Source: Archangium lipolyticum
GTDB lineage: Bacteria; Myxococcota; Myxococcia; Myxococcales; Myxococcaceae
DNA length: 64,000 nucleotides
Assembly: GCF_024623785.1 (NCBI RefSeq)
Contig: NZ_JANKBZ010000008.1
Coordinates: forward strand, 310,001 to 374,000
Direction of reading: 5' to 3'
Part shown: one piece after another, positions 7,401-64,000 of the stretch
Numbering within the stretch: position 1 is the stretch's first letter
Layout of the letters: every line of letters begins with the position of its first letter
The notes under the pieces: model-generated
The model's input: the letters and a program-made list of their open reading frames with translations, nothing else
The model's database searches: none
What the model was told of the DNA's origin: nothing
Program-made: the position numbers and the translations under genes

Positions 7401-8810
7401 TCACCCGTGGCGGAAGCGAGGCCCCTCGGTCGTCTTCCCGAGCGTGAAGCGCAGGGCCTGCTCCAGCGTGGGGTGGACGAAGGTGAAGCCCTGGCGCTCG
7501 GCGGCCTCCGGGCGGAGGTGGGCGCCGAGGAGGAGCGTCTCCTGGCCCATCTCTCCGAAGAGGGTCCGCACCGCGCTGGCGGGCAGTGGAAACAGTGCCG
7601 GCCGGGAGAGCACCTGGCCCAGGGTCCGGGCGAACTCCTCCTGCCGCACGGCGTTCGGCGCCACCGCGTTGACGGGCCCGCGCAGCCCCTCGGTGAACAG
7701 AGCGAAGTGGATGAGGCCGATGACGTCCTCGATGGAGACCCAGCTCATCCACTGCTGGCCATCTCCGATGCGGCCGCCTCCACCCGCCAGGAAGGCGGGG
7801 AGCATCTTCGCCAGCGCGCCCCCCCGGGAGCTCAGCACCACGCCCAGGCGCAGGTGCACCACGCGGATGCCGGCCTGCTCCGCCGGAGCGGTGGCCGCCT
7901 CCCACTCGCGGGTGACATCGGCCAGGAAGCCCTCTCCGGACGTGCTGGACTCGGTGAGCACCTCGTCGCCCCGGTTGCCGTAGAACCCCATGGCCGACGC
8001 GCTCACCAGGACCCTCGGCGGGCGCGCCAGACGCGCGAGCGACTCGCACAGCACCCGGGTGCCCTCGACACGGCTGCGGCGGATGAGGGCCTTTCGCTCC
8101 TCCGTCCAGCGCCCCTCGGCGATGGGTGCCCCGGCCAGGTGCACCACCGCGTCCACGCCCTCCAGCGCGGCCACGTCCATCTCCCCCTGGCCCGGCGCCC
8201 AGGCGATGTCCCCGGCCTCGGGCTGGCCGCGCACCAACCTCCGTACCCGGTGGCCTCCCGTGGTGAGGAAGGGAGCCAGCGCGCTCCCCACCAGCCCCGA
8301 GGCGCCGCTCACCGCCACCGTCAGCGGCTTGAGCCTGGCGAAGGCCGCGTGCCGCCGCAGATCCTCGCGCGTCACCGCGTGGCGGTAGGCGAACATCCGC
8401 TCCAGCCGGTGCCGCGCGTAGCCGCCCCCCATCACGCGCCCGAGCGCCCCCACCGGCAGCGCGTACTCCACCTCGTCCTCCAGCACCGTGCCGCCCGAGG
8501 GCTCGTCCCACATACGGTGGGTGTGGATCCACCGGGAGAAGGGCCCCGACTCCTGCACGTCCTGGAAGAGCGAGCCGGGCACATACCGGGTATGCCGGGC
8601 CACCCACCGCAGGGGCACGGGCCCCACGTTCATGCGCAGCACCACCCGGGTGCCCTCGCGGATGCCGTCGCCCTGCTTCTCCTCCACCTCGACCGGCTCC
8701 CAGGGAGGCGTCAGGCGCTGGAAGGCCCCCTCGCGGGCATGCCAGGCGAACACATCCTCGGCATCCACGGGCATCTGGCTGCGAGCCTCGAACACCTGCG
8801 ACTTGCTCAT
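7401..8810 (-). CDS. SRPBCC domain fused to TIGR01777-type epimerase
   Basis: 469 residues in two parts. Residues 1-155 form an SRPBCC (START-like) ligand-binding domain (SQMPVDAEDVFAWHAREGAF). Residues 160-469 are an atypical extended SDR of the YfcH/SDR39U1 (TIGR01777) family, with the Rossmann motif GASGLVGSAL and the family hallmark PRVLVSASAMGFYG, where the usual catalytic YxxxK is altered. Fusions of this order are known in Actinobacteria and myxobacteria; the substrate is not established. GGAGGGGACG precedes the ATG. It is divergent from the Sua5 gene with only 35 bp between start codons, so their promoters must overlap. Confidence 0.9.
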   Translation of the reverse strand: MSKSQVFEARSQMPVDAEDVFAWHAREGAFQRLTPPWEPVEVEEKQGDGIREGTRVVLRMNVGPVPLRWVARHTRYVPGSLFQDVQESGPFSRWIHTHRMWDEPSGGTVLEDEVEYALPVGALGRVMGGGYARHRLERMFAYRHAVTREDLRRHAAFARLKPLTVAVSGASGLVGSALAPFLTTGGHRVRRLVRGQPEAGDIAWAPGQGEMDVAALEGVDAVVHLAGAPIAEGRWTEERKALIRRSRVEGTRVLCESLARLARPPRVLVSASAMGFYGNRGDEVLTESSTSGEGFLADVTREWEAATAPAEQAGIRVVHLRLGVVLSSRGGALAKMLPAFLAGGGGRIGDGQQWMSWVSIEDVIGLIHFALFTEGLRGPVNAVAPNAVRQEEFARTLGQVLSRPALFPLPASAVRTLFGEMGQETLLLGAHLRPEAAERQGFTFVHPTLEQALRFTLGKTTEGPRFRHG

Positions 8811-8845
8811 CGTCCCCTCCGGAGGCCAGATTGCGCTCTACAGGT

Positions 8846-9817
8846 ATGCTTACCTCGGACCTCCTCGCACGGGCAGTGGAAATGCTGAAACGCGGTGGCG
8901 TCATCGCGCTGCCGACGGAAACCGTCTATGGCCTGGCGGCCAATTGTGAGGACGAGCTGGCCGTACGCCGCGTCTTCGCCATCAAGGGGCGCCCCGCCAC
9001 CCACCCCCTCATCGTCCACGTGGCCCGCGCCGAAGAGCTCCCCTCCTGGGCCCGCCACATCCCCGAGGACGCCTGGAACCTCGCGAGGGCCTTCTGGCCG
9101 GGGCCGCTCACCCTCGTGCTGCCGCGCACCGCGCGCGCCACGGACGCCGTCACCGGAGGCCAGGACACGGTGGCGGTCCGCGTGCCCAACCACCCGCTCG
9201 CCCTGGCCGTGCTGGACGCCCTGGGAGGCGGCGTGGCCGCGCCGAGCGCCAACCGCTTCGGCAAGGTGAGCCCCACCACGGCGGAGCACGTGCGGGCGGA
9301 CCTGGCGGACGAGGTGGACCTCATCCTCGACGGCGGCCCATGCACCGTGGGCCTGGAGTCCACCATCGTCGACCTGAGCGGCAGGGAGCCGGCGGTGCTG
9401 CGCCCCGGAGGCCTGCCGGTGGAGGAAATCGAGCGCGTCCTGGGGCGCAGGGTGCCGGTGAGGACCTCGGCCACGGTGCGGGTCTCGGGAAGCCTCGCCT
9501 CGCACTACGCGCCCCGGGCGGGGGTGGTGCTCGCCGAGCCCCGGGACGTGGTCTCCCGCGTGGAGGCCCTCCGCGCCCAGGAGCAGAGCGTGGGCGTCCT
9601 GGGGCCTCCGAGCCTCATCCTCCCCCCGGGAGTCCCCCGCTACGACGTGCCGGAGGACCCGGCCGGCGCCGCGCGCGTCCTTTATATGCGGCTGCGCGAG
9701 GCGGACCAGCGGGGGCACGACGTGCTGGTGGCCTGTCTCCCACGGGCCGAGGGCCTGGGCATCGCCGTGAGGGATCGCCTGGCCCGCGCCGCCGCCCCCC
9801 GGCCCGCTGGGGGCTGA
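8846..9817 (+). CDS. sua5: Threonylcarbamoyl-AMP synthase (Sua5 type)
   Basis: 323 residues. It makes threonylcarbamoyl-adenylate from threonine, bicarbonate and ATP, the first step of t6A formation at tRNA position 37. The YrdC domain (residues 1-200) shows ALPTETVYGLAANCEDE, KGRPATHPLIVH and the SANRFGKVSPT loop. The extra C-terminal domain (from about 225, SGSLASHYAPRAGVVLAEP) marks it as Sua5 rather than short TsaC/YrdC. ATG 8846 was chosen over the TTG at 8831 because homologues start just before the LARAVEMLKRGG helix. Confidence 0.93.
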   Translation: MLTSDLLARAVEMLKRGGVIALPTETVYGLAANCEDELAVRRVFAIKGRPATHPLIVHVARAEELPSWARHIPEDAWNLARAFWPGPLTLVLPRTARATDAVTGGQDTVAVRVPNHPLALAVLDALGGGVAAPSANRFGKVSPTTAEHVRADLADEVDLILDGGPCTVGLESTIVDLSGREPAVLRPGGLPVEEIERVLGRRVPVRTSATVRVSGSLASHYAPRAGVVLAEPRDVVSRVEALRAQEQSVGVLGPPSLILPPGVPRYDVPEDPAGAARVLYMRLREADQRGHDVLVACLPRAEGLGIAVRDRLARAAAPRPAGG

Positions 9818-9900
9818 CCGCCATACAAGCCACGCAGTGGGCGCTCCTCCGAGCCGCAGGGTACGGCACCGGCACCGTGCGGCTGCACGCATTCACCTGC

Positions 9901-9909
9901 TGGTATGAT
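9901..9909 (+). promoter_or_regulatory. Candidate extended -10 promoter
   Basis: TGGTATGAT matches an extended -10 element (TGn then TATGAT, five of six consensus bases). It lies 33 bp before the TTG start of the lipoprotein gene at 9943. No good -35 is visible, which is acceptable for extended -10 promoters. Confidence 0.45.
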
Positions 9910-9942
9910 GCGCCACTCCCGTACCACGAAAGGGGGGTCGCC

Positions 9943-10911
9943 TTGAGGTCCGGTCCATTTCTCCTGCCGCTCTGGGTGGTATGTGTTTTGTCAGCCGGGA
10001 TTTCCTGCTCGAAGTCCAGCACCGATCCGGCCTCTGTTCAGTCATCGGATGGCGGGACGGTCGCTTCCGCTGATGGCGGGACAGTCACTTCCGCATGCGA
10101 GAGGTGGAGGTCCGGGAGAAAGGAAGCCCCGGCGAATACTCCGTACACCGTGTTGGAGGCACACTGCACGGAGCTCGAAGGCCGGGCCTGGGTGGTGGAG
10201 CTCCGCCAACAGACCGCCACGCCCCTCTTCAGCGCTGTCTTCCAGGCGGAGCCCGCCTCCGCCACGCGTGAATACCTGTTCTCGACCGGCTTCGTGAAAG
10301 AGCCGCTCGCACGTCCGTTCCAGTCAGTGTCGGCCATCGACATGGATGGAGATCAGCACCCGGAGTTGTTCATCCGAGCGGGTCAACAGTTGGCAAGCGG
10401 AGAGAGACAGTCCGCCGGAACCCTCCTGCGGGCCGAGCACGATGCGATCCGCGAGTACCTCCCCGCCCACGATTATACGATCGATGACGTGCAGGACTTC
10501 GATGCGGATGGGCGACCGGACCTGCTGCTCGGTTTCGTCCTACGCGGAGACCCGGCCATCAAGCGATGCGCGCCGAGGCAACAATCCTGGGGGACCCTGG
10601 TCTTCCTCGGGCACACCCTGCCGGACGGAGGGCTCTCGCTCACGGATGAGGTGGCCGTGCGCTACGCGCGCCAGCAGTGTCCAACCCGACCCGAGCCGCC
10701 CTACTACCGTAAGGGACAGTCACTCGCCGACGTCACGCATGCCTATTACTGCGCGCGCCTGTGGCAGATCGACTCCGACACGCTGAAGAAGAGCTTCCAG
10801 GATGCTTGCCGGTCACAGACTCGGCAGATGGCGCGATGCGAAGGAGCTTGCGGCGCGCTCCAGGGCCACATCCCACATCTCGCGGAGTTCCAACCGCCGC
10901 TGTCCCTGTAG
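9943..10911 (+). CDS. Lipoprotein with FG-GAP/VCBS-like calcium-type repeats
   Basis: 322 residues from a TTG start preceded by GAAAGGGGGG. The N-terminal hydrophobic run ends at a probable lipid-modified cysteine (AGISC, Cys22). After a low-complexity Ser/Thr/Gly linker come two aspartate-rich repeats of the FG-GAP/VCBS kind, D-M-D-G-D-Q-H-P-E-L-F near residue 131 and D-F-D-A-D-G-R-P-D-L-L near 185. It is likely a surface or periplasmic lipoprotein of unknown function. Base composition is visibly less GC-rich than in the flanking genes, and with its convergent neighbour it forms a possible acquired islet. Confidence 0.78.
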   Translation: MRSGPFLLPLWVVCVLSAGISCSKSSTDPASVQSSDGGTVASADGGTVTSACERWRSGRKEAPANTPYTVLEAHCTELEGRAWVVELRQQTATPLFSAVFQAEPASATREYLFSTGFVKEPLARPFQSVSAIDMDGDQHPELFIRAGQQLASGERQSAGTLLRAEHDAIREYLPAHDYTIDDVQDFDADGRPDLLLGFVLRGDPAIKRCAPRQQSWGTLVFLGHTLPDGGLSLTDEVAVRYARQQCPTRPEPPYYRKGQSLADVTHAYYCARLWQIDSDTLKKSFQDACRSQTRQMARCEGACGALQGHIPHLAEFQPPLSL

Positions 10912-10912
10912 C

Positions 10913-10950
10913 CCTGAATCGAGGCGGTAGCAGCTGCCCGCCCATTCAGG
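10913..10950. terminator. Bidirectional hairpin between convergent genes
   Basis: CCTGAAT (10913-10919) pairs with ATTCAGG (10944-10950), and GGCGG pairs with CCGCC inside. It occupies the 34-bp gap between the lipoprotein stop and the stop of the minus-strand gene. No T-run follows, so termination strength is uncertain. Confidence 0.55.
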
Positions 10951-11911
10951 ACGGCGGATAGCACAGGTACTTGAAGGCGTCGAAGGTCCTCGAGCCGAGC
11001 TCCGATCGTTGGAAGACCGCTTCGGCGCGGTTCTGCGTGAGGTTGATGTACAAGATGCTTCCGTCGATGTTGTTCTTCAGCCCCTGCGGGATGCCCTGAA
11101 CACTGTCATACCTTCCAACGTCGGCCCCCCACCCTGGAGGGCCCCCGTAGGTTTTCCGCCGCGCGAACTGGGCGAAGAGGCTCATGTAGGTCTCATTGGC
11201 CATCAGTTCTTTCAGATAGGTGACCACTTCCGCGCGTGTCATCTGCAGGGGCAGACCCGCGGCGGCGTTCTGGGGATGGCTGAATTTTTCCCGGGTGCCC
11301 GTCGGCTTGTCCCTGATGAAGAGCACCATGGCCTTGAAGAGCGTCGTCGCGAAGCAGCCCCAGATGTGGATTTCACCCGAGACGGGGGTGAACGCCAAGG
11401 GGAGCTGCGGGTACTGACGGCTCATCTGCGATTGGCGGGTCAACGGATCCAACGTGAACTGCTCTGTCCGCAGATCGAAGTCCGCTGGATCCGGCTGTAG
11501 GGTGTTGAAGAGGATGGGCCCGCCATGCCATGCATGGCTGAACACGCTGTAGTTCTGGACTGTTCCGGGACGCGTCCGCCCGATGGTGTCGAGATAGCCG
11601 TGCGCGTAATGCCCGGTGATGTATTGCGACTCATTCCGGGAGGAGTTCAACCAGTTGACATACGCGGTGACCGAGTCCCAACTGGCGGTCTTGCGGCTCT
11701 CGAGGATGGCCTGGGCCCTATACCCCAGCACCTTCATGCCATTTCGCACGCGCAGCCAGGTGCTCGCATCTCCTCGTTCACAGTCCAGGAGGGTCACCGG
11801 AGAGCTGACATTGATTGCCTTGCTGAAATAGAGATGTTGGGCATAGGTGTGGGCACTGTTGCGGAACGGCAGTCCGGACCTATGCGCACCAGGCTCAGAG
11901 CGCGAGGTCAC
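10946..11911 (-). CDS. Unknown protein, possibly missing its N-terminus by frameshift
   Basis: 321 residues from a GTG at 11911; an in-frame TGA lies only two codons upstream (11918-11920), so the frame cannot extend. I do not recognise a characterised family. Visible features are the motif FSHAWHGGPILFNT near residue 125, followed by the charged DPADFDLRTEQF, then GEIHIWGCFATT near 180, and an aromatic-rich C-terminus ending in FDAFKYLCYPPS. No signal peptide or membrane helix is evident. A 54-codon frame with a much better ribosome site overlaps the start (11895-12059) in another frame and may be the true N-terminus. Composition is less GC-rich than the flanks. Confidence 0.65.
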   Translation of the reverse strand: MTSRSEPGAHRSGLPFRNSAHTYAQHLYFSKAINVSSPVTLLDCERGDASTWLRVRNGMKVLGYRAQAILESRKTASWDSVTAYVNWLNSSRNESQYITGHYAHGYLDTIGRTRPGTVQNYSVFSHAWHGGPILFNTLQPDPADFDLRTEQFTLDPLTRQSQMSRQYPQLPLAFTPVSGEIHIWGCFATTLFKAMVLFIRDKPTGTREKFSHPQNAAAGLPLQMTRAEVVTYLKELMANETYMSLFAQFARRKTYGGPPGWGADVGRYDSVQGIPQGLKNNIDGSILYINLTQNRAEAVFQRSELGSRTFDAFKYLCYPPS

Positions 11912-54431: not shown

Positions 54432-56327
54432 GTGACAAAGAACACGCGTGCGTGGCGCTGGGGACCCTTGCTGGCCTTGTCCGTGGGGGCGCTCTCGTCC
54501 CTCCACTGCATCGAGCTTCCCGCGAAGTCCTTCTCCTGCTCGACCGATGGGGACTGCGAGGGGCTGAAGGGCCCTGGCGGAGAGTCCTACGTCTGCGTGA
54601 GCGGGGGCTGGTGCGCCGGACCCGAGCAGTCGCCGGGCGGCGCCTGCCCTCAGATCCCGACCGCCTCCTCCTGCTCCACCTCCAACTGGTGCTGGGACAA
54701 CCCGCTCTCCGAGGGACGCACGCTGTTCACCGTCCGGGGCCGCTCCGCGACGGACGTCTGGGCCGTGGGCGACAGGGGCATCGCCCTGCATTGGGATGGC
54801 AACTGCTGGTCCCGCCAGCCGCCCGGCGGAACCCAGCCGCTGCGTGCCGCCTGGCCCGCCGCGGGGAAGACGTGGTGGTTCGGCGGAAACGGCGGCACCC
54901 TGTTCAAGTGGGATGGCTCGACCTGGGCCTCCCAGGCCCTCGCCGAGCAGTTGATCATCCACGACATCGAGGGAGCCTCGGAAACGTCCGCGGTCGCGGT
55001 GGGACAGTCCGGCGCCCTCTACACCTTCAATGGCCAGCAGTGGAGCGCCCAGACGTGGAACACCGGCGGCTTCCCTCCGCCCGATCTCCTGGCCGTGTGG
55101 CCCGTCTCGAACACCGAGGCCTGGGCGGTGGGCAGGGGCGGCACCCTCGTGCATGGGGTGGAGGGACGCTGGTCCTTCGCCAACAGGCAGGGCTCCGTGG
55201 ACCTGATGGCCATCGCCCCCGGAGCCAATGCCGGTACGGCCTACGCCGTGGGCCGGGGCACCCTCGCGACCTATGCCAACTCCACGTGGTCGACGTCCGG
55301 CTACGCGACGTCCGCCACGCCCCTCAATGGGGTGTGGACCAGCGGTGGCGTCACGCGGATCGTCGGGCCCGCGTCGAACATCCACGTCCTGGGCAGGTCC
55401 ACCGAGCCGAGCGGCACGCCCCAGGTGCTCAACTCCATCTGGGGCAATGACGAGGCGCTCTGGGCGGTCGGGGCCGCGGGCGCCATCGTGCGACGGGGGA
55501 CGGCCCAGTGGTCGGAGGTCCCCGGCGGCGTGACGCGCGCCCTCAACGGCTTCTGGGGCACCGACGATCTCAATCTCTGGGCGGCCGGGGACAACGACCT
55601 GATCATGCGCCGCGAGAACAACCTCTGGGCGCCCGTGACGCCTCCGGAGCAGGGCGCCTTCAAGGCCATCTGGGGGAGCGGGGACCTGCTGCTGGTGGGG
55701 ACGGGCGGGGGCAGGCTCCTGGCGTTCAGGAACGGCCAGTGGACGCAGGAGACCGGCGACGTGCTCGCGACCAGCGTGAACGCCCTCTGGGGAACGGGAC
55801 CGGCATCGGTGTGGGCCGTGGGCGACAACGGGCTCATCTCGCGGCGCAATGCCGATGGCACCTGGACCAGCGAGGGGAGGCTCAGCACCGATCGGCTGAA
55901 CGCCATCTGGGGCTCCTCCGCCAGCGATGTCTGGGCGGTGGGCAACGGCGGCATCATCTACCACCGGGACTCGACGGGCTGGCTCAGGCAGAAGCTGCCC
56001 ACGTCGACCGATCTCTTCGGCGTGTGGGGCTCGGGTCCGAACGACGTGTGGGCGGTGGGCAACGGCGGAGCCATCTTCCGCTACGACGGCAAGGCCTGGA
56101 CGACCACGCCCATCCAGGTGGGGACCCAGAGCTTCCGCGCCATCTCCGGACGGAGCGCGGACAACGTGTGGGCCGTGGGCGACGGTGGCGCCATCGCGTT
56201 CTGGAACGGGAAGAGCTGGACGGCCCAGGTGAGCGGCGTCGACGAGAGCCTGCGGGCGGTATGGGTGACCCCGAGCACCACGTGGGTGGGTGGCACCAAT
56301 GGGACGGTCCTTCGGTTGAAACCGTGA
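54432..56327 (+). CDS. Myxobacterial 'DVWAVG' beta-propeller lipoprotein
   Basis: 631 residues, GTG start. Hydrophobic N-terminus with a cysteine at 26 (SSLHC) and a cysteine-rich stretch (residues 26-87, e.g. CSTDGDCEGL) typical of myxobacterial secreted proteins. The rest is about 13 copies of a 40-residue unit with the pattern D/N-V-W-A-V-G-x-x-G-x-I-x-x-x-x-G-x-x-W (e.g. SDVWAVGNGGIIYHRD, NDVWAVGNGGAIFRYDG), best read as one or two beta-propellers. Function unknown; surface exposure likely. Confidence 0.85.
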   Translation: MTKNTRAWRWGPLLALSVGALSSLHCIELPAKSFSCSTDGDCEGLKGPGGESYVCVSGGWCAGPEQSPGGACPQIPTASSCSTSNWCWDNPLSEGRTLFTVRGRSATDVWAVGDRGIALHWDGNCWSRQPPGGTQPLRAAWPAAGKTWWFGGNGGTLFKWDGSTWASQALAEQLIIHDIEGASETSAVAVGQSGALYTFNGQQWSAQTWNTGGFPPPDLLAVWPVSNTEAWAVGRGGTLVHGVEGRWSFANRQGSVDLMAIAPGANAGTAYAVGRGTLATYANSTWSTSGYATSATPLNGVWTSGGVTRIVGPASNIHVLGRSTEPSGTPQVLNSIWGNDEALWAVGAAGAIVRRGTAQWSEVPGGVTRALNGFWGTDDLNLWAAGDNDLIMRRENNLWAPVTPPEQGAFKAIWGSGDLLLVGTGGGRLLAFRNGQWTQETGDVLATSVNALWGTGPASVWAVGDNGLISRRNADGTWTSEGRLSTDRLNAIWGSSASDVWAVGNGGIIYHRDSTGWLRQKLPTSTDLFGVWGSGPNDVWAVGNGGAIFRYDGKAWTTTPIQVGTQSFRAISGRSADNVWAVGDGGAIAFWNGKSWTAQVSGVDESLRAVWVTPSTTWVGGTNGTVLRLKP

Positions 56328-56424
56328 CAACAGAGTGCCGGAATTGGCCACCTGGCGAGCAGGGGAGCCCTCATGTTGCCGCCGCCAGGGGGCGGGTTCT
56401 CTGATAAGGTCCCCGCCTGTTTCG

Positions 56425-58149
56425 ATGGATCTGCCCCCCTTCATAGCGTGTCCCACTTGTGGACTGCGCGTCGCCCAGGGCACCGAGAAGTGCCCTCATG
56501 ACGGCACGGTGCTAGGTGACGACTCCGCCTCCGGCAAGACGCGGCTGACGCCGGCCCAACCGAGTCCCGCCGTCGCCATGCCCGCCCAGACCCAGCCGGC
56601 CATGGGCGCTGGGGCCTTCAAGGGCGGCCCCGGGTCACAGGTCGGCATCCCGAGCGTCGCCGACCCGCTGCTCGGCACGCAGCTGGGTGAGTACATCATC
56701 CAGGAGCAGATCGGCATCGGCGGCATGGGCATCGTCTACCGGGGCGAGCAGCCGTTGATTGGCAAGAAGGTGGCCATCAAGGTCCTGCGGCCCGACGTGG
56801 GCGATCAATCCATGTACGTGGAGCGGTTGCTCGTCGAGGCCCGCGCGGTCAACGCCATCCGCCACCGGGGAATCATCGACATCTTCAGCTTCGGCAAGAT
56901 GCCGGATGGCCGCCAGTACTTCGTCATGGAGTACCTGGAGGGCAGCCCGCTCGACACCTGGCTCGACCTCCGCGGGCCGCTCTCCGTGCACGAGGCGATC
57001 CGGCTGTCCGACGAAATCCTGGACGCGCTCACCGCCGCGCACGAGGCCGGCGTCATCCACCGCGACCTCAAGCCCAACAACATCTTCCTGGCGCGGCAGC
57101 CCGGCGGCGGCCACTACGTGAAGGTGTTGGACTTCGGACTGGCCAAGCAGCTGTCCAACAGCCCGGGGCTCTCGCAGCAGACGCTGCACGGGTTGATCAT
57201 CGGCACGCCGGAGTACATGGCGCCGGAGCAGGTGCGCGGCGATCCGGTGAGCCCCAAGACGGACCTCTACGCCTTCGGCATCATCCTCTTCCAACTGCTG
57301 ACCGGGCAGCGCCCCTTCACGGCCCGGGCGCCCATGGAGTACCTGGTCCACCACCTGGAGCACACGCCGCCCTCGCCGCTCGAGCTGAAGCCGGAGCTGC
57401 CCCCCGCGCTCGCGAAGCTCGTGCTGAGACTGCTGGAGAAGGCACCGGCCGCGCGCCCCTCGGCGGAAGAGGTGCGTGCCAGTCTCCAGGAAATCCTGGA
57501 CGGCCTGCCTATCCCGGAAGGAATGCGCCCCTCGCGCGAGATGCGGAGCATCCTGGTGGCCGGCCCGGAAGTCCGGCCCGTCCTACCGCCACCGCCACTG
57601 CCACCGCCACCACGGGAAAAGCCGGAAGTGAGCGCGGCCCCGAGCGGCAAGCCCCAGCGCTTCTCCACCCGGACCCGTCTGGTGGCGGGAGTGGCCGCCG
57701 GGTTGCTCCTGCTCACCGCTGGCGTGGCGGTGCTGCTGCGGAGCCCGGATCCGAAGCCCGAGGCCACGCCCCCGGCCAGCTCCGTGACCGAGGCCCCGGC
57801 GAAGCCCCCTCCGGCCGCGCCCTCCACCGAGCTCGCCGCCAACCCCGGCCCCACCGTTCCCCCTCCCGTCGTGGAGAACACCCCGCCAGGTCCAACTCCC
57901 GTGGAGACCCCTTCCCGCGTGAGCGGCCCGTCCAAGGTGAACACCGAGCGCAAGCCGTACCTGCTCACGCGCATCGCGCGCCTGGAGCGGAGGCTGCGCG
58001 CGAGCTCGCTCTCCTCGGATGAGCAGGAGAGCGCGCGCCGCCTGCTGAACAAGGCACGCGTCAGGGCGGAGAGCGCCTCGACCGCCGACGAGCGCAAGCA
58101 GGTGCAGCTCAACCTCGACATCTGGGAGCGCCAGTACCTGAGGAACTGA
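56425..58149 (+). CDS. Membrane Ser/Thr protein kinase with N-terminal zinc-ribbon-like motif
   Basis: 574 residues. Residues 9-26 carry CPTCG and KCPHDG, like a small zinc ribbon. A Hanks-type kinase (about 90-365) has IGIGGMGIVYRG, VAIKVLRP, HRDLKPNNIF near 211, DFGLAKQ, GTPEYMAPEQ and the DLYAFGIILFQLLTG helix, so it should be active. A Pro-rich juxtamembrane stretch precedes a membrane helix at about 420-440 (LVAGVAAGLLLLTAGVAVLL), then a Pro/Thr-rich periplasmic part ending in a coiled segment (LLTRIARLERRLRASSLSSDEQESARRLL). ATG 56425 is the start; a 30-residue upstream extension is not coding. Confidence 0.93.
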   Translation: MDLPPFIACPTCGLRVAQGTEKCPHDGTVLGDDSASGKTRLTPAQPSPAVAMPAQTQPAMGAGAFKGGPGSQVGIPSVADPLLGTQLGEYIIQEQIGIGGMGIVYRGEQPLIGKKVAIKVLRPDVGDQSMYVERLLVEARAVNAIRHRGIIDIFSFGKMPDGRQYFVMEYLEGSPLDTWLDLRGPLSVHEAIRLSDEILDALTAAHEAGVIHRDLKPNNIFLARQPGGGHYVKVLDFGLAKQLSNSPGLSQQTLHGLIIGTPEYMAPEQVRGDPVSPKTDLYAFGIILFQLLTGQRPFTARAPMEYLVHHLEHTPPSPLELKPELPPALAKLVLRLLEKAPAARPSAEEVRASLQEILDGLPIPEGMRPSREMRSILVAGPEVRPVLPPPPLPPPPREKPEVSAAPSGKPQRFSTRTRLVAGVAAGLLLLTAGVAVLLRSPDPKPEATPPASSVTEAPAKPPPAAPSTELAANPGPTVPPPVVENTPPGPTPVETPSRVSGPSKVNTERKPYLLTRIARLERRLRASSLSSDEQESARRLLNKARVRAESASTADERKQVQLNLDIWERQYLRN

Positions 58150-59043: not shown

Positions 59044-60561
59044 TCAGTTGCGCAGCCTCGTGTGCTCGGGAGGACTGCGCGGCAGCCGCACACCGAAGGT
59101 GGTGCCATCGGACTCGGTGGACCGCACGTCGATGGTGCCGCCGTGCGCCCGGACGATGTGGTCCACGATGAAGAGCCCGAGGCCGATGCTGCGGCCCACG
59201 GAGTCCGCCTGGCTCGTTCCCCGCCGCATGGGCTCGAAGAGGTGTGAGAGGACGGTGAGCGGAATGGGAAGCCCCTGGTTGTGGACCTCCAGCACCACGC
59301 TCTCGGCGTCCCCGAGCGTCCGCACCAGGACTGGGGTCTCCGGCGGGCTGTACTTCAAGGCGTTGGTGATGAGGTTGGTGAGGATCTGCGCCACCCTGTC
59401 CGAGTCCCACTCTCCCTGCCCATCACCGGACGCCTCGAGCCGCACCTCGCGCTCGGGGAAGGACATCCGGGTCTCCTCCACCACGGTCCGGGTGAGGTGG
59501 TGCAGCTCCATGGGCATCCGATAGAGGGAGATGCCACCCCCCAGCCGGGCCTTCGTGAAGTCGAGCAGGTCGCGGATCATCCGGCTGGCGCGCTCGGCCG
59601 AGGACTGGATGCGCACGAGCGTCTTGAGGGCGCGCTCGGCCATGTCCTCGCGGCGCAGCAGGCTCGCCACTCCCAGGGAGATGGCCGTGATGGGGTTGCG
59701 CAGATCGTGGCTGACGATGCCGATGAGCTGCTGCTCGAAGTCGGCGCGCCGCCGCTCCTCGGCCCGGGCGGCCTCCTCGCTCCGCTTCTTCTCGCTGATG
59801 TCCCGGTAGAAGACGGCGATGCCCCCGTCGCGCGTGGGGTAGACGCTGACGTCCGTCCAGATGTTCCGGGGCGGGAAGTACTCCTCGAAATGCACCGGCA
59901 CCCGCTCGCGCATGGCCCGGTTGTACTCGAGCCAATACTTTCTGTTCGGGTCCGCGGCCGCGGGCCAGACGTCCCAGAGCTTGCGATCCAGGCTCTTGGT
60001 GCGAGGTACTCCGGAGAGGCGCTCCTGGCTGCTGTTGACGAAGAGGATGCGGAAGTCCTTGTCGAGGACGAACAGCGCATCTCCGTGGTTCAGCACCTCC
60101 AGGACGAGCTGGAGCCGCTCCTCCGCGAGCCCGGCCCGCGTGCGCTGCTCGGCGAAGCGCTTGCGGATGTCCTCCTTCTCCACCGCGTTGCGGACCGCGC
60201 GGAAGAGGCTCTCGGGCGTCACCTCCGACTTCACCAGGTAGTCGGACACCCCGCTCATGAGCGCCTCGACCGCGATCCGCTCGTTCCCTCGCCCGGTCAG
60301 CATCACGACGGGCGGGCGGAGGTACCCCTCCTCGGCCCGCAGCCGGCGGAGGAAGTCCAGTCCGCTGAGGCCTGGCAGCTCGTAGTCGAGGAGGACGCAA
60401 TCCACCGACTCGCGCGCGCAGAGCTCGAAGGCCTTGTCCACGTCCTCTTCTTCCAGGAAGCGGAAGGTGTACTCCCCGGTCTGCTCCAGGTACGTCCGGA
60501 ACACGTGCCGATCCTCTGGACTGTCCTCCAGGAGGAGCAACGTCACGACGCGAGCACTCAT
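59044..60561 (-). CDS. REC-PAS hybrid-type histidine kinase
   Basis: 505 residues. An N-terminal receiver (acidic LEDSPED, phospho-acceptor Asp59, Lys111) is followed by a PAS domain (about 145-255, ALFVLDKDFRILFVNSSQERL), HisKA with His285 (GIVSHDLRNPITAIS) and a HATPase domain (NLITNALKYSP, HNQGLPIP, GLGLFIVDHI). The G1 box reads HNQGLP rather than DxGxG, a variant seen in some kinases. The receiver-first order lets it be driven by another kinase, most plausibly the bacteriophytochrome two genes upstream. Its start overlaps the response regulator stop (ATGA). Confidence 0.92.
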   Translation of the reverse strand: MSARVVTLLLLEDSPEDRHVFRTYLEQTGEYTFRFLEEEDVDKAFELCARESVDCVLLDYELPGLSGLDFLRRLRAEEGYLRPPVVMLTGRGNERIAVEALMSGVSDYLVKSEVTPESLFRAVRNAVEKEDIRKRFAEQRTRAGLAEERLQLVLEVLNHGDALFVLDKDFRILFVNSSQERLSGVPRTKSLDRKLWDVWPAAADPNRKYWLEYNRAMRERVPVHFEEYFPPRNIWTDVSVYPTRDGGIAVFYRDISEKKRSEEAARAEERRRADFEQQLIGIVSHDLRNPITAISLGVASLLRREDMAERALKTLVRIQSSAERASRMIRDLLDFTKARLGGGISLYRMPMELHHLTRTVVEETRMSFPEREVRLEASGDGQGEWDSDRVAQILTNLITNALKYSPPETPVLVRTLGDAESVVLEVHNQGLPIPLTVLSHLFEPMRRGTSQADSVGRSIGLGLFIVDHIVRAHGGTIDVRSTESDGTTFGVRLPRSPPEHTRLRN

Positions 60562-61013
60562 CTCCGGGTGCCCTCCCCTTCAGGGAGGACGATGTGGTCC
60601 AGCCAGAAGTCCTTGAAGAGTCGAATCATTCTCTCGAACCTCGGCAGATCCACCGGCTTGAGGAGGTAACCACTCGCGCCGTGCGCATATGCGCTCTGCA
60701 CGTCCTTTGGGTTGCCCGAGGTGGAGAACACTAAGACGGGGATGCTCTTGAGGCGTGGGTCATTCTTGACATGCTCGAGCACCTGCCTGCCGTCCAGGCC
60801 AGCGAGGTTCAGATCCAGGAGGATGAGACCCGGCCAGGGCGCCTTCTCCGGATCCGCGTAGCGGCCAGTCTGGTGGAGGAACTCGAGCGCCTCCTCGCCC
60901 TCCGTGCAGCGATAGAGGGGGTTGGGGATGGACTCGCGCTGGAAGGTCATCTGGAGCATGTCGAAGTCCTCGTCGTTGTCCTCCACCACGAGGATGGGCG
61001 AAGCGCGTTTCAC
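60558..61013 (-). CDS. Phytochrome-associated single-domain response regulator
   Basis: 151 residues, receiver only, with VVEDNDEDFDML, Asp67 (LILLDLNLAGLDG) and Lys119 (YLLKPVD). The extended loop before the beta-3 strand (HQTGRYADPEKAPWPG) is typical of Rcp1-type regulators paired with phytochromes. ATGA overlaps on both sides show coupling to bphP and the REC-PAS kinase. Confidence 0.93.
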   Translation of the reverse strand: MKRASPILVVEDNDEDFDMLQMTFQRESIPNPLYRCTEGEEALEFLHQTGRYADPEKAPWPGLILLDLNLAGLDGRQVLEHVKNDPRLKSIPVLVFSTSGNPKDVQSAYAHGASGYLLKPVDLPRFERMIRLFKDFWLDHIVLPEGEGTRR

Positions 61014-63301
61014 GTCCCATCCTCCGTGGCGACGGGCTCCGTCTGCTCACCGCCGAGGGTGAAGAAGAAGGTGGTGCCCACGCCCGGTTGGGACTCCAGC
61101 CAGATGCGGCCGTTGTGCCGCTCGATGAGGCGCTTGACGATCGTCAGCCCCGTGCCGGTGCCACCGCCGAACTTGTCGCGTCCGTGCAGCCGCTTGAAGA
61201 TGCGGAAGACGGTGTCGTGGTACTCGGGCTTGATGCCGATTCCGTTGTCACGCACGTAGTAGGCGGTGGCCCCGTCGGGCGTGCTCGCGGAGCCGATCTC
61301 CACCCACCGCTTCTCCTTGTCGTTGTACTTGATGGCGTTGGTGAGGAGGTTGGTGAAGACCTCGGCCATCCGCACCCGATCGCACCGCGCGGGCGGCAGG
61401 GGGCTGGGGACGCGGACCTCCACCTGGGCCTCGTCGATGCGCGGCTTCATCAACTCCAGCACCGATGAGAGGACCTCGTTGAGATCCGTCTCCCGGAGGG
61501 AGAGCTCGGTGCGGCCCACCTGCGAGTAATGCAGGAGCGAGTTGATGAGGCTCTCCATGCGCTGCGTGAGCCGCACCACCGTGTCCATGCGCTTCTGGTT
61601 GGTGGGGTTGAGGCCACCGCCCTCCTCCCGCAGGACCAGGCTGGTGTAGTTGTGGATGCCCCGGAGCGGCTCCTTGAGATCATGTCCGGCGGCATAGGCG
61701 AAGGAGTCCAGCTCCACGTTGCTGCGCTCCAGCTCCGTGTTGAGCTTGAGCAGCTCCTCGCTGCGCTGCAGGACGATGTCGATGATGTTCCTGCGCAGCT
61801 CCTCCGCCGCCTCCACCTCGTAGTCCTTCCAGGGCAGGGACTTGCCGCGCACCGTCTCCTGCCAGAGGGCGAAGGACTTGCGCGGGTGGAGCCGGAGCTG
61901 GTCGTCACGCAGGTCCACCGGCTTGTTCGGGTTGCCGCCCCACTCCACCGTCTGCACCACCTCGGGGCGGAACCACAGGACGTAGTTGTGCCGGCCCCGG
62001 GACATGGGAGCGGCGATGAGGCCGGCCGCGACGTCCTTGAAGCCCTCCGCCTCGGGGTAGTCCCGCGAGAGAAACGTGGTGGTGAACACCTCCCGTTGCT
62101 CCGGCCGCTCGCCCAGCCAGCGGATGAGGCTCTGGAGCTGCTCGTCCGAGGGAGCGGCGCCGACGATGGTCGTCTTGCCGTTGAAGTAGACGGCCGCGCC
62201 ACTGGCGCCCGTGAGCTCGAGCAGCTCCGGAGGTGGATGGCAGAGCCCCTCGGCGAAGTCGAGGTTGCGCGTCATGCGCTCCAGCAGCCGGGCCTGGACG
62301 GACCTGGTCCGCAGGCGCTGGTCGTAGTCCTCCTGGCCCTCCTTGGTGGAGAGGAACGAGGACATGAACTCGCCGACGAACTCACACGCCGTGCGCACCT
62401 CGTAGGGGACGTACTTGGGGCCGGACACGTGCGTGCAGGAGATGAGGCCCCAGAGGCGCCCCTGCTCGAGGAGCGAGATGCTCATCGAGGCGAACGCCCC
62501 CATGTTGTGCAGGTACTCGAGGTGGATGGGCGACACGCTGCGCAGCACGCAGAAGGACATGTCGAGCGGTCCGAGCGCCGCCTCCTCTGGCAGCCCGAGC
62601 ATGCGCGCGGGGACGTAGTCGACGGTCGGGATGATGCGCAGCCAGTTGAGGGTGTAGAGCTCGCGCGCCTGGCGGGGGATGTCCGAGGCGGGGAAGTGCA
62701 GGCCCAGGTACGGATCGGCTTTCTCCACCCGGTCCTCGGCGAGCACCTGGCCGTTCCAGTCCGCGTCGAAGCGATAGATGATGACGCGGTCGAAGCCGGT
62801 GAGCCGGCGCACCTCCCGCACGGCCTCCTCGCACAGGGCGCGCAGGTCCCTGGCGTCACGCAGGCGTGACATGGAGCCGCGCGCCTGGTGGTAGAAGCCG
62901 AAGAAGGGCAGCGCCTCCTGTTCGGTCGCGGGCTCGAGCTCGAGGATGAGCCGGCCCTTGTGCCGGTGCGCGATGCCATTGAAGAAGCGCTCCTGGCCAT
63001 GGGCCTGGAGGGAGAGCTTGAGCGGGTTGTTGTCCGCGAGCCGCTCCGAGAGGAGGCTCGCGCGGACGCTGTCGGCCTGGGACGTCGGCAGGAGTGCCTC
63101 GAGCGCGGTCCCCAGCAGGGCCTGGGCCGGGACGCCGAGCAGCACCTGGGCATTCTCGCTGACCTGGCGGATCGTCAGCGTGGGCTCCTGAAGGACCAGC
63201 AGCACCCCATGAGGTTGGATGCCTCCCGGAATGTGGATGGGCTCCTTGTCACAGTTGGTCAGATCCACCGCCTGACCGGGCCCGGCTGCATCCGTCCTCA
63301 T
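61010..63301 (-). CDS. bphP: Bacteriophytochrome histidine kinase
   Basis: 763 residues. PAS-GAF-PHY photosensory core and kinase. Cys17 (LTNCDKEPIHIPGGIQPHG) is the biliverdin attachment site, PASDIPRQAR gives the DIP motif, and SPIHLEYLHNMG the chromophore-facing histidine. The PHY tongue carries PRKSF and WGG motifs. The kinase has AAGHDLKEPLRGIHNY and NLLTNAIKYND, GIGIKP, GTGTGLTIVKR boxes. Senses red/far-red light if biliverdin is available; no heme oxygenase gene is nearby. ATG 63301 (GGAGGACG upstream) is preferred to 63334. First gene of the operon ending at 59044. Confidence 0.95.
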   Translation of the reverse strand: MRTDAAGPGQAVDLTNCDKEPIHIPGGIQPHGVLLVLQEPTLTIRQVSENAQVLLGVPAQALLGTALEALLPTSQADSVRASLLSERLADNNPLKLSLQAHGQERFFNGIAHRHKGRLILELEPATEQEALPFFGFYHQARGSMSRLRDARDLRALCEEAVREVRRLTGFDRVIIYRFDADWNGQVLAEDRVEKADPYLGLHFPASDIPRQARELYTLNWLRIIPTVDYVPARMLGLPEEAALGPLDMSFCVLRSVSPIHLEYLHNMGAFASMSISLLEQGRLWGLISCTHVSGPKYVPYEVRTACEFVGEFMSSFLSTKEGQEDYDQRLRTRSVQARLLERMTRNLDFAEGLCHPPPELLELTGASGAAVYFNGKTTIVGAAPSDEQLQSLIRWLGERPEQREVFTTTFLSRDYPEAEGFKDVAAGLIAAPMSRGRHNYVLWFRPEVVQTVEWGGNPNKPVDLRDDQLRLHPRKSFALWQETVRGKSLPWKDYEVEAAEELRRNIIDIVLQRSEELLKLNTELERSNVELDSFAYAAGHDLKEPLRGIHNYTSLVLREEGGGLNPTNQKRMDTVVRLTQRMESLINSLLHYSQVGRTELSLRETDLNEVLSSVLELMKPRIDEAQVEVRVPSPLPPARCDRVRMAEVFTNLLTNAIKYNDKEKRWVEIGSASTPDGATAYYVRDNGIGIKPEYHDTVFRIFKRLHGRDKFGGGTGTGLTIVKRLIERHNGRIWLESQPGVGTTFFFTLGGEQTEPVATEDGT

Positions 63302-63561: not shown

Positions 63562-64000
63562 ATGTTCATCGGTCTCAGTGAGATGCACGCGCGCACCCGC
63601 GAGCACGACTGGGCCTCCACCCCCGTTGGACCGGTGGAGACCTGGCCCCAGAGCCTCAAGGCGCTCGTCCGGACACTGCTCTCGTCGAGCTACCCCATGG
63701 TGCTCACCTGGGGTCCGTCCTTCACCCAGTTCTACAACGATGCCTACTCGAAGCTGATCGGCGACGGACACCCGGCGGCGCTCGGCCTGGACATCCGGAT
63801 CACCCTCGCCGCGTCGTGGGACACGCTCGGCCCGATGATCCATCAGGTGATGACCACCGGGGTGGCGAACTGGACGCCCGCCCTGATGCTCCTCATGGAG
63901 CGCTCCGGATACCGGGAGGAGGCCTACTTCAGCGTCTCCCATGCCCCCGCCGAGGACGACGAGGGGCGGATCGTCGGCATGCTCGCCGTCTGCAGCGAGG
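63562..64000 (+). CDS. PAS-containing sensor protein, 3' truncated by the window
   Basis: 146 residues visible, open to the window end. The N-terminus reads MHARTREHDWASTPVGPVETWPQ (from residue 8), then SYPMVLTWGPSFTQFYNDAYSKLIGDGHPAALG, the pattern of the first PAS-like domain of large hybrid histidine kinases. An ATG at 63502 is in frame and would add 20 residues of low coding character; 63562 is preferred. The kinase part must lie beyond the window. Confidence 0.75.
   Translation, partial: MFIGLSEMHARTREHDWASTPVGPVETWPQSLKALVRTLLSSSYPMVLTWGPSFTQFYNDAYSKLIGDGHPAALGLDIRITLAASWDTLGPMIHQVMTTGVANWTPALMLLMERSGYREEAYFSVSHAPAEDDEGRIVGMLAVCSE

Follow-up and report, generated by a model that had tools for sequence, protein, structure and literature searches.

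This locus raises the question of what a second histidine kinase, which itself begins with a receiver domain, does behind a bacteriophytochrome and its free response regulator. The window analysed is a stretch of 64,000 nucleotides from Archangium lipolyticum (C8:310001-374000, that is, contig C8 of a 12.6-Mb genome in 75 contigs). Within it, the bacteriophytochrome gene bphP, the response regulator gene rcp and the gene of the second kinase are three consecutive genes on the minus strand, at 59044-63301. The gene order, the domains, the intact catalytic residues and the conservation of the arrangement were observed. From sequence comparison and by analogy with studied systems, we believe that the circuit is probably branched: the kinase of BphP would serve both Rcp and the receiver of the second kinase, and this receiver would set the activity of the second kinase.

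The operon and its receiver-first kinase

The operon is genuine. The original prediction had placed a three-gene operon here with ATGA overlaps at both junctions; its coordinates and domain content were borne out, and the ATGA held for the second junction only. The rcp/second kinase junction (60558-60561) is a 4-bp ATGA overlap, and the bphP/rcp junction (61010-61013) is a 4-bp overlap that reads GTGA, with rcp starting at GTG. A GGAGGA box lies 7 bases upstream of the bphP ATG at 63301. Four-base overlaps were found at the bphP/regulator junction in 45 and at the regulator/kinase junction in 52 of 65 triads scored, a set that counts L101 (on the same contig as L044) and omits the later-found L060, L072 and L099. 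Chance or misread open reading frames were ruled out by the strong domains and the conserved gene order. The best solved matches of the rcp product were RcpB (1k66, 169 bits), 5te9 (104), 4zyl (96), RcpA (94) and Rcp1 (1i3c, 90). Its single receiver domain, this similarity and the phytochrome next door mark it as a regulator of the Rcp1/RcpB type.

The second kinase consists of REC (residues 9-123), PAS_4 (160-260), HisKA (277-339) and HATPase_c (386-495). Its catalytic landmarks are all present, with Asp59 as phospho-acceptor, Lys111 in the receiver and His285 as phospho-His. In an alignment of 21 sequences, Asp13, Asp59, Thr89, Lys111, His285, Asn396, Asn400, Gly430, Gly460 and Gly462 were invariant, and the receiver Lys and the HisKA His were present in 122/122 second kinases. 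The protein has the make-up of a Rec-HK, namely an N-terminal receiver with intact Asp and Lys followed by a full HisKA-HATPase core. No domain lies between receiver and HisKA in 67 of the 122 kinases, i.e. no other sensor domain was seen there, and in 63 of these 67 the Lys-to-His spacing is 55, 62 or 69 residues, a single heptad phase. A study of LvrB reports that the spacing in receiver-controlled kinases prefers multiples of seven (PMC13269768).

The AlphaFold model of the second kinase had a mean predicted local distance difference test score (pLDDT) of 81.5 and a predicted template modelling score (pTM) of 0.45. In the model, one helix (116-159) carries the receiver into the PAS domain and another (256-302) joins PAS to HisKA. 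A fold search with this model returned PAS/LOV kinases and the P. aeruginosa bacteriophytochrome as top matches and LvrB from rank 11; PPHK was not among the best 50 matches. TM-scores were low because the model is multi-domain. At the sequence level, the receiver with its linker (residues 7-147) matched PPHK (6oap) at 107 bits, and the next solved structure at 57. PPHK is receiver-first like the window kinase, and no solved structure matched the receiver and linker helix of the latter better. A bilin-binding GAF reportedly follows the receiver of PPHK, in place of the PAS of the window kinase. The name PPHK and its source, Leptolyngbya sp. JSC-1, are given in PMC11480761 and PMC8199190.

The closest biochemical precedent is the BphP1-AgR-ExsG-ExsF system of Rhizobium NT-26 and Agrobacterium, whose phytochrome, single receiver and receiver-first kinase follow one another as they do in the window (PMC3899027, PMC1552090). 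The passages on phosphotransfer report that BphP1 transfers phosphate to AgR, the free regulator, as well as to Asp62 in the N-terminal receiver of ExsG, and the authors called the cascade intrinsically branched (PMC3899027). Phosphorylation of the receiver by BphP1 inhibits ExsG, and ExsG phosphorylates ExsF, not AgR or itself (PMC3899027). The two kinases differ: ExsG has an HWE-type core and its target ExsF as a neighbour, whereas the window kinase combines a HisKA core with a PAS domain, and among its neighbours no ExsF-like gene was seen. A Shinella relative (L182) scored to HWE_HK, and its receiver and that of the window kinase fall in different clades. By analogy, the window kinase may work like ExsG, but it is not an ExsG. 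LvrB, the prototype of receiver-controlled kinases, resembles the proposed circuit in that an upstream kinase phosphorylates an N-terminal receiver which acts on the core by way of a signalling helix; phosphorylation of this receiver drives a coiled coil by which the kinase is freed and so activated (PMC13269768). Unlike the window kinase, LvrB has no PAS and no phytochrome, and it acts in a Leptospira virulence pathway (PMC13269768).

Two myxobacterial phytochromes can be compared directly. Myxococcus macrosporus has an operon of heme oxygenase, BphP, response regulator and histidine kinase, described as including "an additional Histidine Kinase"; RNA-Seq found it expressed and unaffected by light (PMC11832031). 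Like the window operon, it joins a phytochrome, a regulator and a further kinase; unlike it, it has a heme oxygenase, and the passages on this operon do not mention a receiver at the start of the additional kinase (PMC11832031). The other is SaBphP1 of Stigmatella aurantiaca. Over 206 residues, the protein of the crystal structures (6bap/6bao) is 100% identical to the phytochrome of locus L053 (genome G037), which has a receiver-first kinase upstream and a receiver and a REC-PAS-HK protein downstream. L053 shares with the window the order BphP, regulator, REC-PAS-HK and the same Thr (see below), and differs by the extra receiver-first kinase upstream. The S. aurantiaca BphPs have been assigned to an operon of three genes that includes a heme oxygenase and a regulator (PMC6126659). 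A search for a heme oxygenase within 3.5 kb of L053 gave none; a second phytochrome of the same genome, L061, has one adjacent.

The architecture was therefore already known, in part for M. macrosporus (PMC11832031) and biochemically for ExsG (PMC3899027). This study adds the spread of the triad, the link to SaBphP1, the loci lacking a free regulator and the relationship of the receiver to PPHK. The receiver-first kinase beside SaBphP1 adds to the published three-gene description. Phytochromes of the SaBphP1 type are structurally among the best studied, and passages of the literature either leave their downstream signalling to later analysis or give it as a simple kinase-regulator pair. The conserved receiver-bearing kinase is a concrete place to seek the missing output.

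Spread and descent of the triad

The arrangement is common, and the window operon is an example of a known and widespread circuit. The family scan with PF00360 gave 65 phytochrome places in 46 of 96 genomes, and all 65 neighbourhoods were taken in. A phytochrome followed by a receiver-first kinase was found at 58 of the 65 loci, 53 with and 5 without a free regulator. At these five (L059, L062, L070, L077 and L080) no free receiver was found even at E 1, so that in at least 5 of the 65 loci the only receiver found beside the phytochrome is that of the receiver-first kinase. Seven loci (L007, L051, L052, L056, L057, L068 and L089, the last cut by a contig end) had neither regulator nor receiver-first kinase. 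Class A, the window type, comprises 14 loci, plus the related L049 and L050 with longer kinases; no heme oxygenase was found within 3.5 kb at class A loci. Class B comprises 42 loci with a receiver-first kinase; at every one of them a heme oxygenase gene lies immediately upstream and the kinase lacks PAS.

Other samples extended this picture. A scan of named genomes, with 80 of 294 loci kept, gave triads in 12 of the 80: nine in cyanobacteria, two in metagenome-assembled genomes of Schlesneria and one (L101) that repeats L044. Most Bacteroidota loci in that scan had a phytochrome and a receiver with no receiver-first kinase. Sixty of 115 listed cyanobacterial places, all within the 76 best and chosen by similarity, comprised 48 triads, 10 loci with the regulator only (L219 cut by a contig end) and 2 with the kinase only. 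The two kinase-only loci, L209 and L245, are, with the five family loci above, natural candidates for direct transfer. Among 6 of 118 plasmid records, triads were found in Azospirillum, Methylobacterium, Deinococcus and Shinella (with an HWE kinase), and Cupriavidus had the regulator only; in the Caballeronia record neither regulator nor receiver-first kinase was found. Planctomycetota, Deinococcota and Alphaproteobacteria are thus also represented. No paper on cross-phylum conservation of the triad turned up in the open-licence literature, which is no claim that it is unpublished.

In the receiver tree, free regulators and kinase receivers formed separate clades. Second-kinase receivers of Myxococcota, Cyanobacteria, Planctomycetota and Deinococcus grouped with PPHK (support 0.844), and those of Shinella, Rhizobium, Azospirillum and Methylobacterium grouped elsewhere (0.988). 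In the kinase-core tree, second-kinase cores stood mostly apart from phytochrome cores (1.0 and 0.991); as exceptions, the Deinococcus second kinase sat within the phytochrome group, and six phytochrome kinases, from myxobacteria and cyanobacteria, sat on the opposite side. From these separate receiver clades and the core tree, it appears that a receiver-first kinase came to occupy the slot behind phytochrome and regulator at least twice. Two other origins were considered. That the receiver is a duplicate of Rcp was not supported, given the different clades, and the same holds for the second kinase as a duplicate of the phytochrome kinase, given cores that are mostly apart, with the exceptions named.

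We also weighed a wider proposal, to which we give an even chance. Phytochrome, free receiver and receiver-controlled kinase would be a standard phytochrome output unit in a range of groups that includes at least Myxococcota, Cyanobacteria, Planctomycetota, Deinococcota and Alphaproteobacteria. The unit would have been put together two or more times, with different kinases. Light would be reported by a fast free regulator and, in parallel, by an integrating or inverting second kinase. SaBphP1 would be one case, and the two-component pathway described for it would in that event be incomplete.

The proposed circuit and its alternatives

We infer all phosphotransfer steps, the effect of light and the biological output. 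In the proposed circuit, light would change the net kinase (or phosphatase) activity of BphP, and BphP would exchange phosphate with Rcp and with the second kinase, at Asp59 of its N-terminal receiver. Once phosphorylated, this receiver would alter second-kinase activity through the long helix into which its alpha-5 extends. The second kinase may take an additional signal through its PAS domain, and it would phosphorylate a regulator encoded elsewhere. It would thus be an integrating or inverting node, with either sign of control possible. Development as the output is a guess, by analogy with Stigmatella. The precedents of ExsG and LvrB, together with the heptad phase, make the branch the most economical reading. 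The frequency of the triad in the family and in cyanobacteria, the retained Lys, His and Asp59, the PPHK match and clade, the two modelled helices and the fused paralogue at C10:112891 also speak for it.

Partner specificity was approached by co-variation in 115 triads, scored at the receiver residue four after the first acidic residue, which we take to be the equivalent of Val13 in RR468. RR468 V13P and HK853 D297E were named among interface-rewiring mutants in structure titles of the fold search. Regulator and kinase receiver agreed as acid or non-acid in 111/115 triads, with 3 discordant and 1 gap. At offset 37 of the BphP HisKA, a basic residue went with an acidic kinase receiver, or neither was present, in 120/122. 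A mutual-information scan of the BphP HisKA had its tops at offsets 31, 39, 37 and 10; these tops are only suggestive, because there were two independent switches and a control was also concordant. The co-variation test is weak: it is consistent with a shared kinase, no more.

Several points weigh against the branch. On the tree, the regulator has just two changes at its key alpha-1 position, and the kinase receiver switches on those two branches and on two further ones. The C-terminal control receiver was also concordant (17/21), and the charge rule fails for Bacteroidota regulators (22/53 concordant). The window kinase has a PAS domain between REC and HisKA, and the heptad-phase result comes from its relatives. 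The clade that unites the receivers with PPHK is supported at 0.844 only. The precedents are not fully orthologous: ExsG has an HWE core and a receiver in the other clade, and LvrB comes from a different pathway. Moreover, no output regulator was found next to the operon, and no DNA-binding-like regulator for the window class was found among the first ~35 conserved-neighbour clusters, which are partly annotated.

The original prediction had left the choice between a branching and a returning relay. The branching part gained from comparison and precedent, and the returning part is disfavoured. In a returning relay or self-loop, the second kinase would phosphorylate Rcp or its own receiver and close the operon on itself, which suits three genes in one operon, a second kinase with intact catalytic residues and the lack of any other regulator gene next door. 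However, ExsG passed phosphate to neither AgR nor its own receiver (PMC3899027), and the alpha-1 residues of the operon's two kinases differ strongly: at offsets 3, 4, 7, 8, 11 and 12 after the phospho-His, BphP has KERGNY and the second kinase RNTALG. In class B, moreover, second kinases with a non-acidic receiver tend to carry a basic HisKA of their own, the reverse of the BphP pattern. We consider such a return unlikely. Instead, the second kinase might act as an integrator and have its receiver served chiefly by a different kinase, for example the divergent PAS-GAF-HK-REC-HK protein, with the phytochrome using Rcp only. An HK-REC-HK gene is adjacent in 5 of the 16 loci of window type (divergent in 4, on the same strand in 1), and receiver-first kinases lacking a phytochrome occur in the same genome (7 loci looked at, from 117 matches). 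But such a gene is not adjacent in the other 11, and the receiver-first kinase follows the phytochrome at 58 of the 65 family loci, five times with no free regulator between them, which leaves this reading just as doubtful as the returning relay.

We regard as very improbable a linear path from BphP to Rcp in which the third gene is an unrelated kinase on a shared transcript. Pairs of BphP and regulator that lack a receiver-first kinase do exist, in 10 of the 60 cyanobacterial loci (one cut by a contig end) and in Bacteroidota loci. Against it, the third gene is kept beside bphP across phyla, its start overlaps the regulator stop in 52/65 triads, and it persists where the free regulator is absent (the five family loci, L209 and L245). 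The branched circuit remains our preferred reading. A candidate output, in which the orphan phytochrome on contig C4 and the second kinase would share a downstream regulator, was dropped, as the residues after the phospho-His do not match.

Phytochrome, chromophore supply and neighbouring genes

The window BphP carries the marks of a bacteriophytochrome histidine kinase: PAS-GAF-PHY-HisKA-HATPase, the biliverdin Cys (in DLTNC), PASDIP and the PRxSF motif (as PRKSF). The conserved His is lacking; Thr stands where DrBphP has His290 (SaBphP1 position 289). This absence does not exclude membership among bacteriophytochromes, as the same absence is known for SaBphP1. Across the 65 family loci, the position was His in 46, Thr in 13, Gly in 4, Ala in 1 and not read in 1. 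The best solved match of the window BphP was SaBphP1 (6bap, 739 bits; the matched chain is the T289H mutant), and we consider the window protein SaBphP1-like, with predicted biliverdin binding. In SaBphP1, 660 nm light gives classical Pfr spectra, and the missing His impedes Pfr formation and stabilisation (PMC6126659).

The lack of a heme oxygenase gene in the window was confirmed: the two PF01126 matches of the genome, at C8:201616-202194 and C9:245776-246342, both fall outside it. The importance hinted at for this absence was not supported, since the genome has two such genes and other loci of the window type likewise have no adjacent one. Chromophore supply therefore need not be local. The C9 heme oxygenase immediately precedes another phytochrome (C9:247322), which is followed by a receiver and then a receiver-first kinase. 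The C8 heme oxygenase (L009 7602-8324; C8:201.6 kb) does not adjoin a phytochrome; about 5 kb away, at C8:194009-196378, lies a gene for a 940-residue receiver-first kinase whose receiver is 51% identical to that of the window kinase. A further phytochrome of the genome is the orphan at C4:129713 (L007, C4:120000-139000; bphP at 8721-10970), with Gly at the 289 position and a kinase core on the second-kinase side of the core tree. No adjoining regulator or receiver-first kinase was found at L007.

Table 1. Genes of the phytochrome operon and the divergent kinase beside it (window positions)
Gene	Position	Strand	Domains (Pfam for the operon genes) and remarks
bphP (bacteriophytochrome)	61010..63301	-	PAS_2-GAF-PHY-HisKA-HATPase_c; 763 residues
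rcp (single-domain response regulator, RcpB/Rcp1 type)	60558..61013	-	lone Response_reg; 151 residues; GTG start
second kinase (probable receiver-controlled histidine kinase)	59044..60561	-	Response_reg-PAS_4-HisKA-HATPase_c; 505 residues
divergent hybrid kinase, start portion	63562..64000, on to ~C8:376540	+	PAS-GAF-HisKA-HATPase-REC-HisKA-HATPase; start codon at 63562 inferred

A search of its own genome with the second kinase gave 117 matches at E <= 1e-20, the query among them. Seven paralogue places with a match reaching the receiver were examined, and two others starting at residues 43-45 were left out. In 6 of the 7, another histidine kinase or receiver gene lay beside the paralogue or was fused to it. 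The paralogue at C10:112891 is a single HK-REC-HK protein, fused behind another histidine kinase and 42% identical to the second kinase over residues 8-497. The divergent hybrid kinase adjoining the operon (L006 6329-9541) is also of the HK-REC-HK type and is a candidate extra input or output of the circuit. At L043, L053, L054 and L055, bphP is preceded on its own strand by another receiver-first kinase gene, and the phytochrome is thus flanked by two; in the core tree, the core of this upstream kinase clusters with the second of the two cores in the divergent HK-REC-HK protein (support 0.996). Beyond the end of the operon, on the opposite strand, lie a Ser/Thr protein kinase gene (56335-58149, plus strand) and a gene whose long product carries repeated WAVG..G motifs (54432-56327, plus strand).

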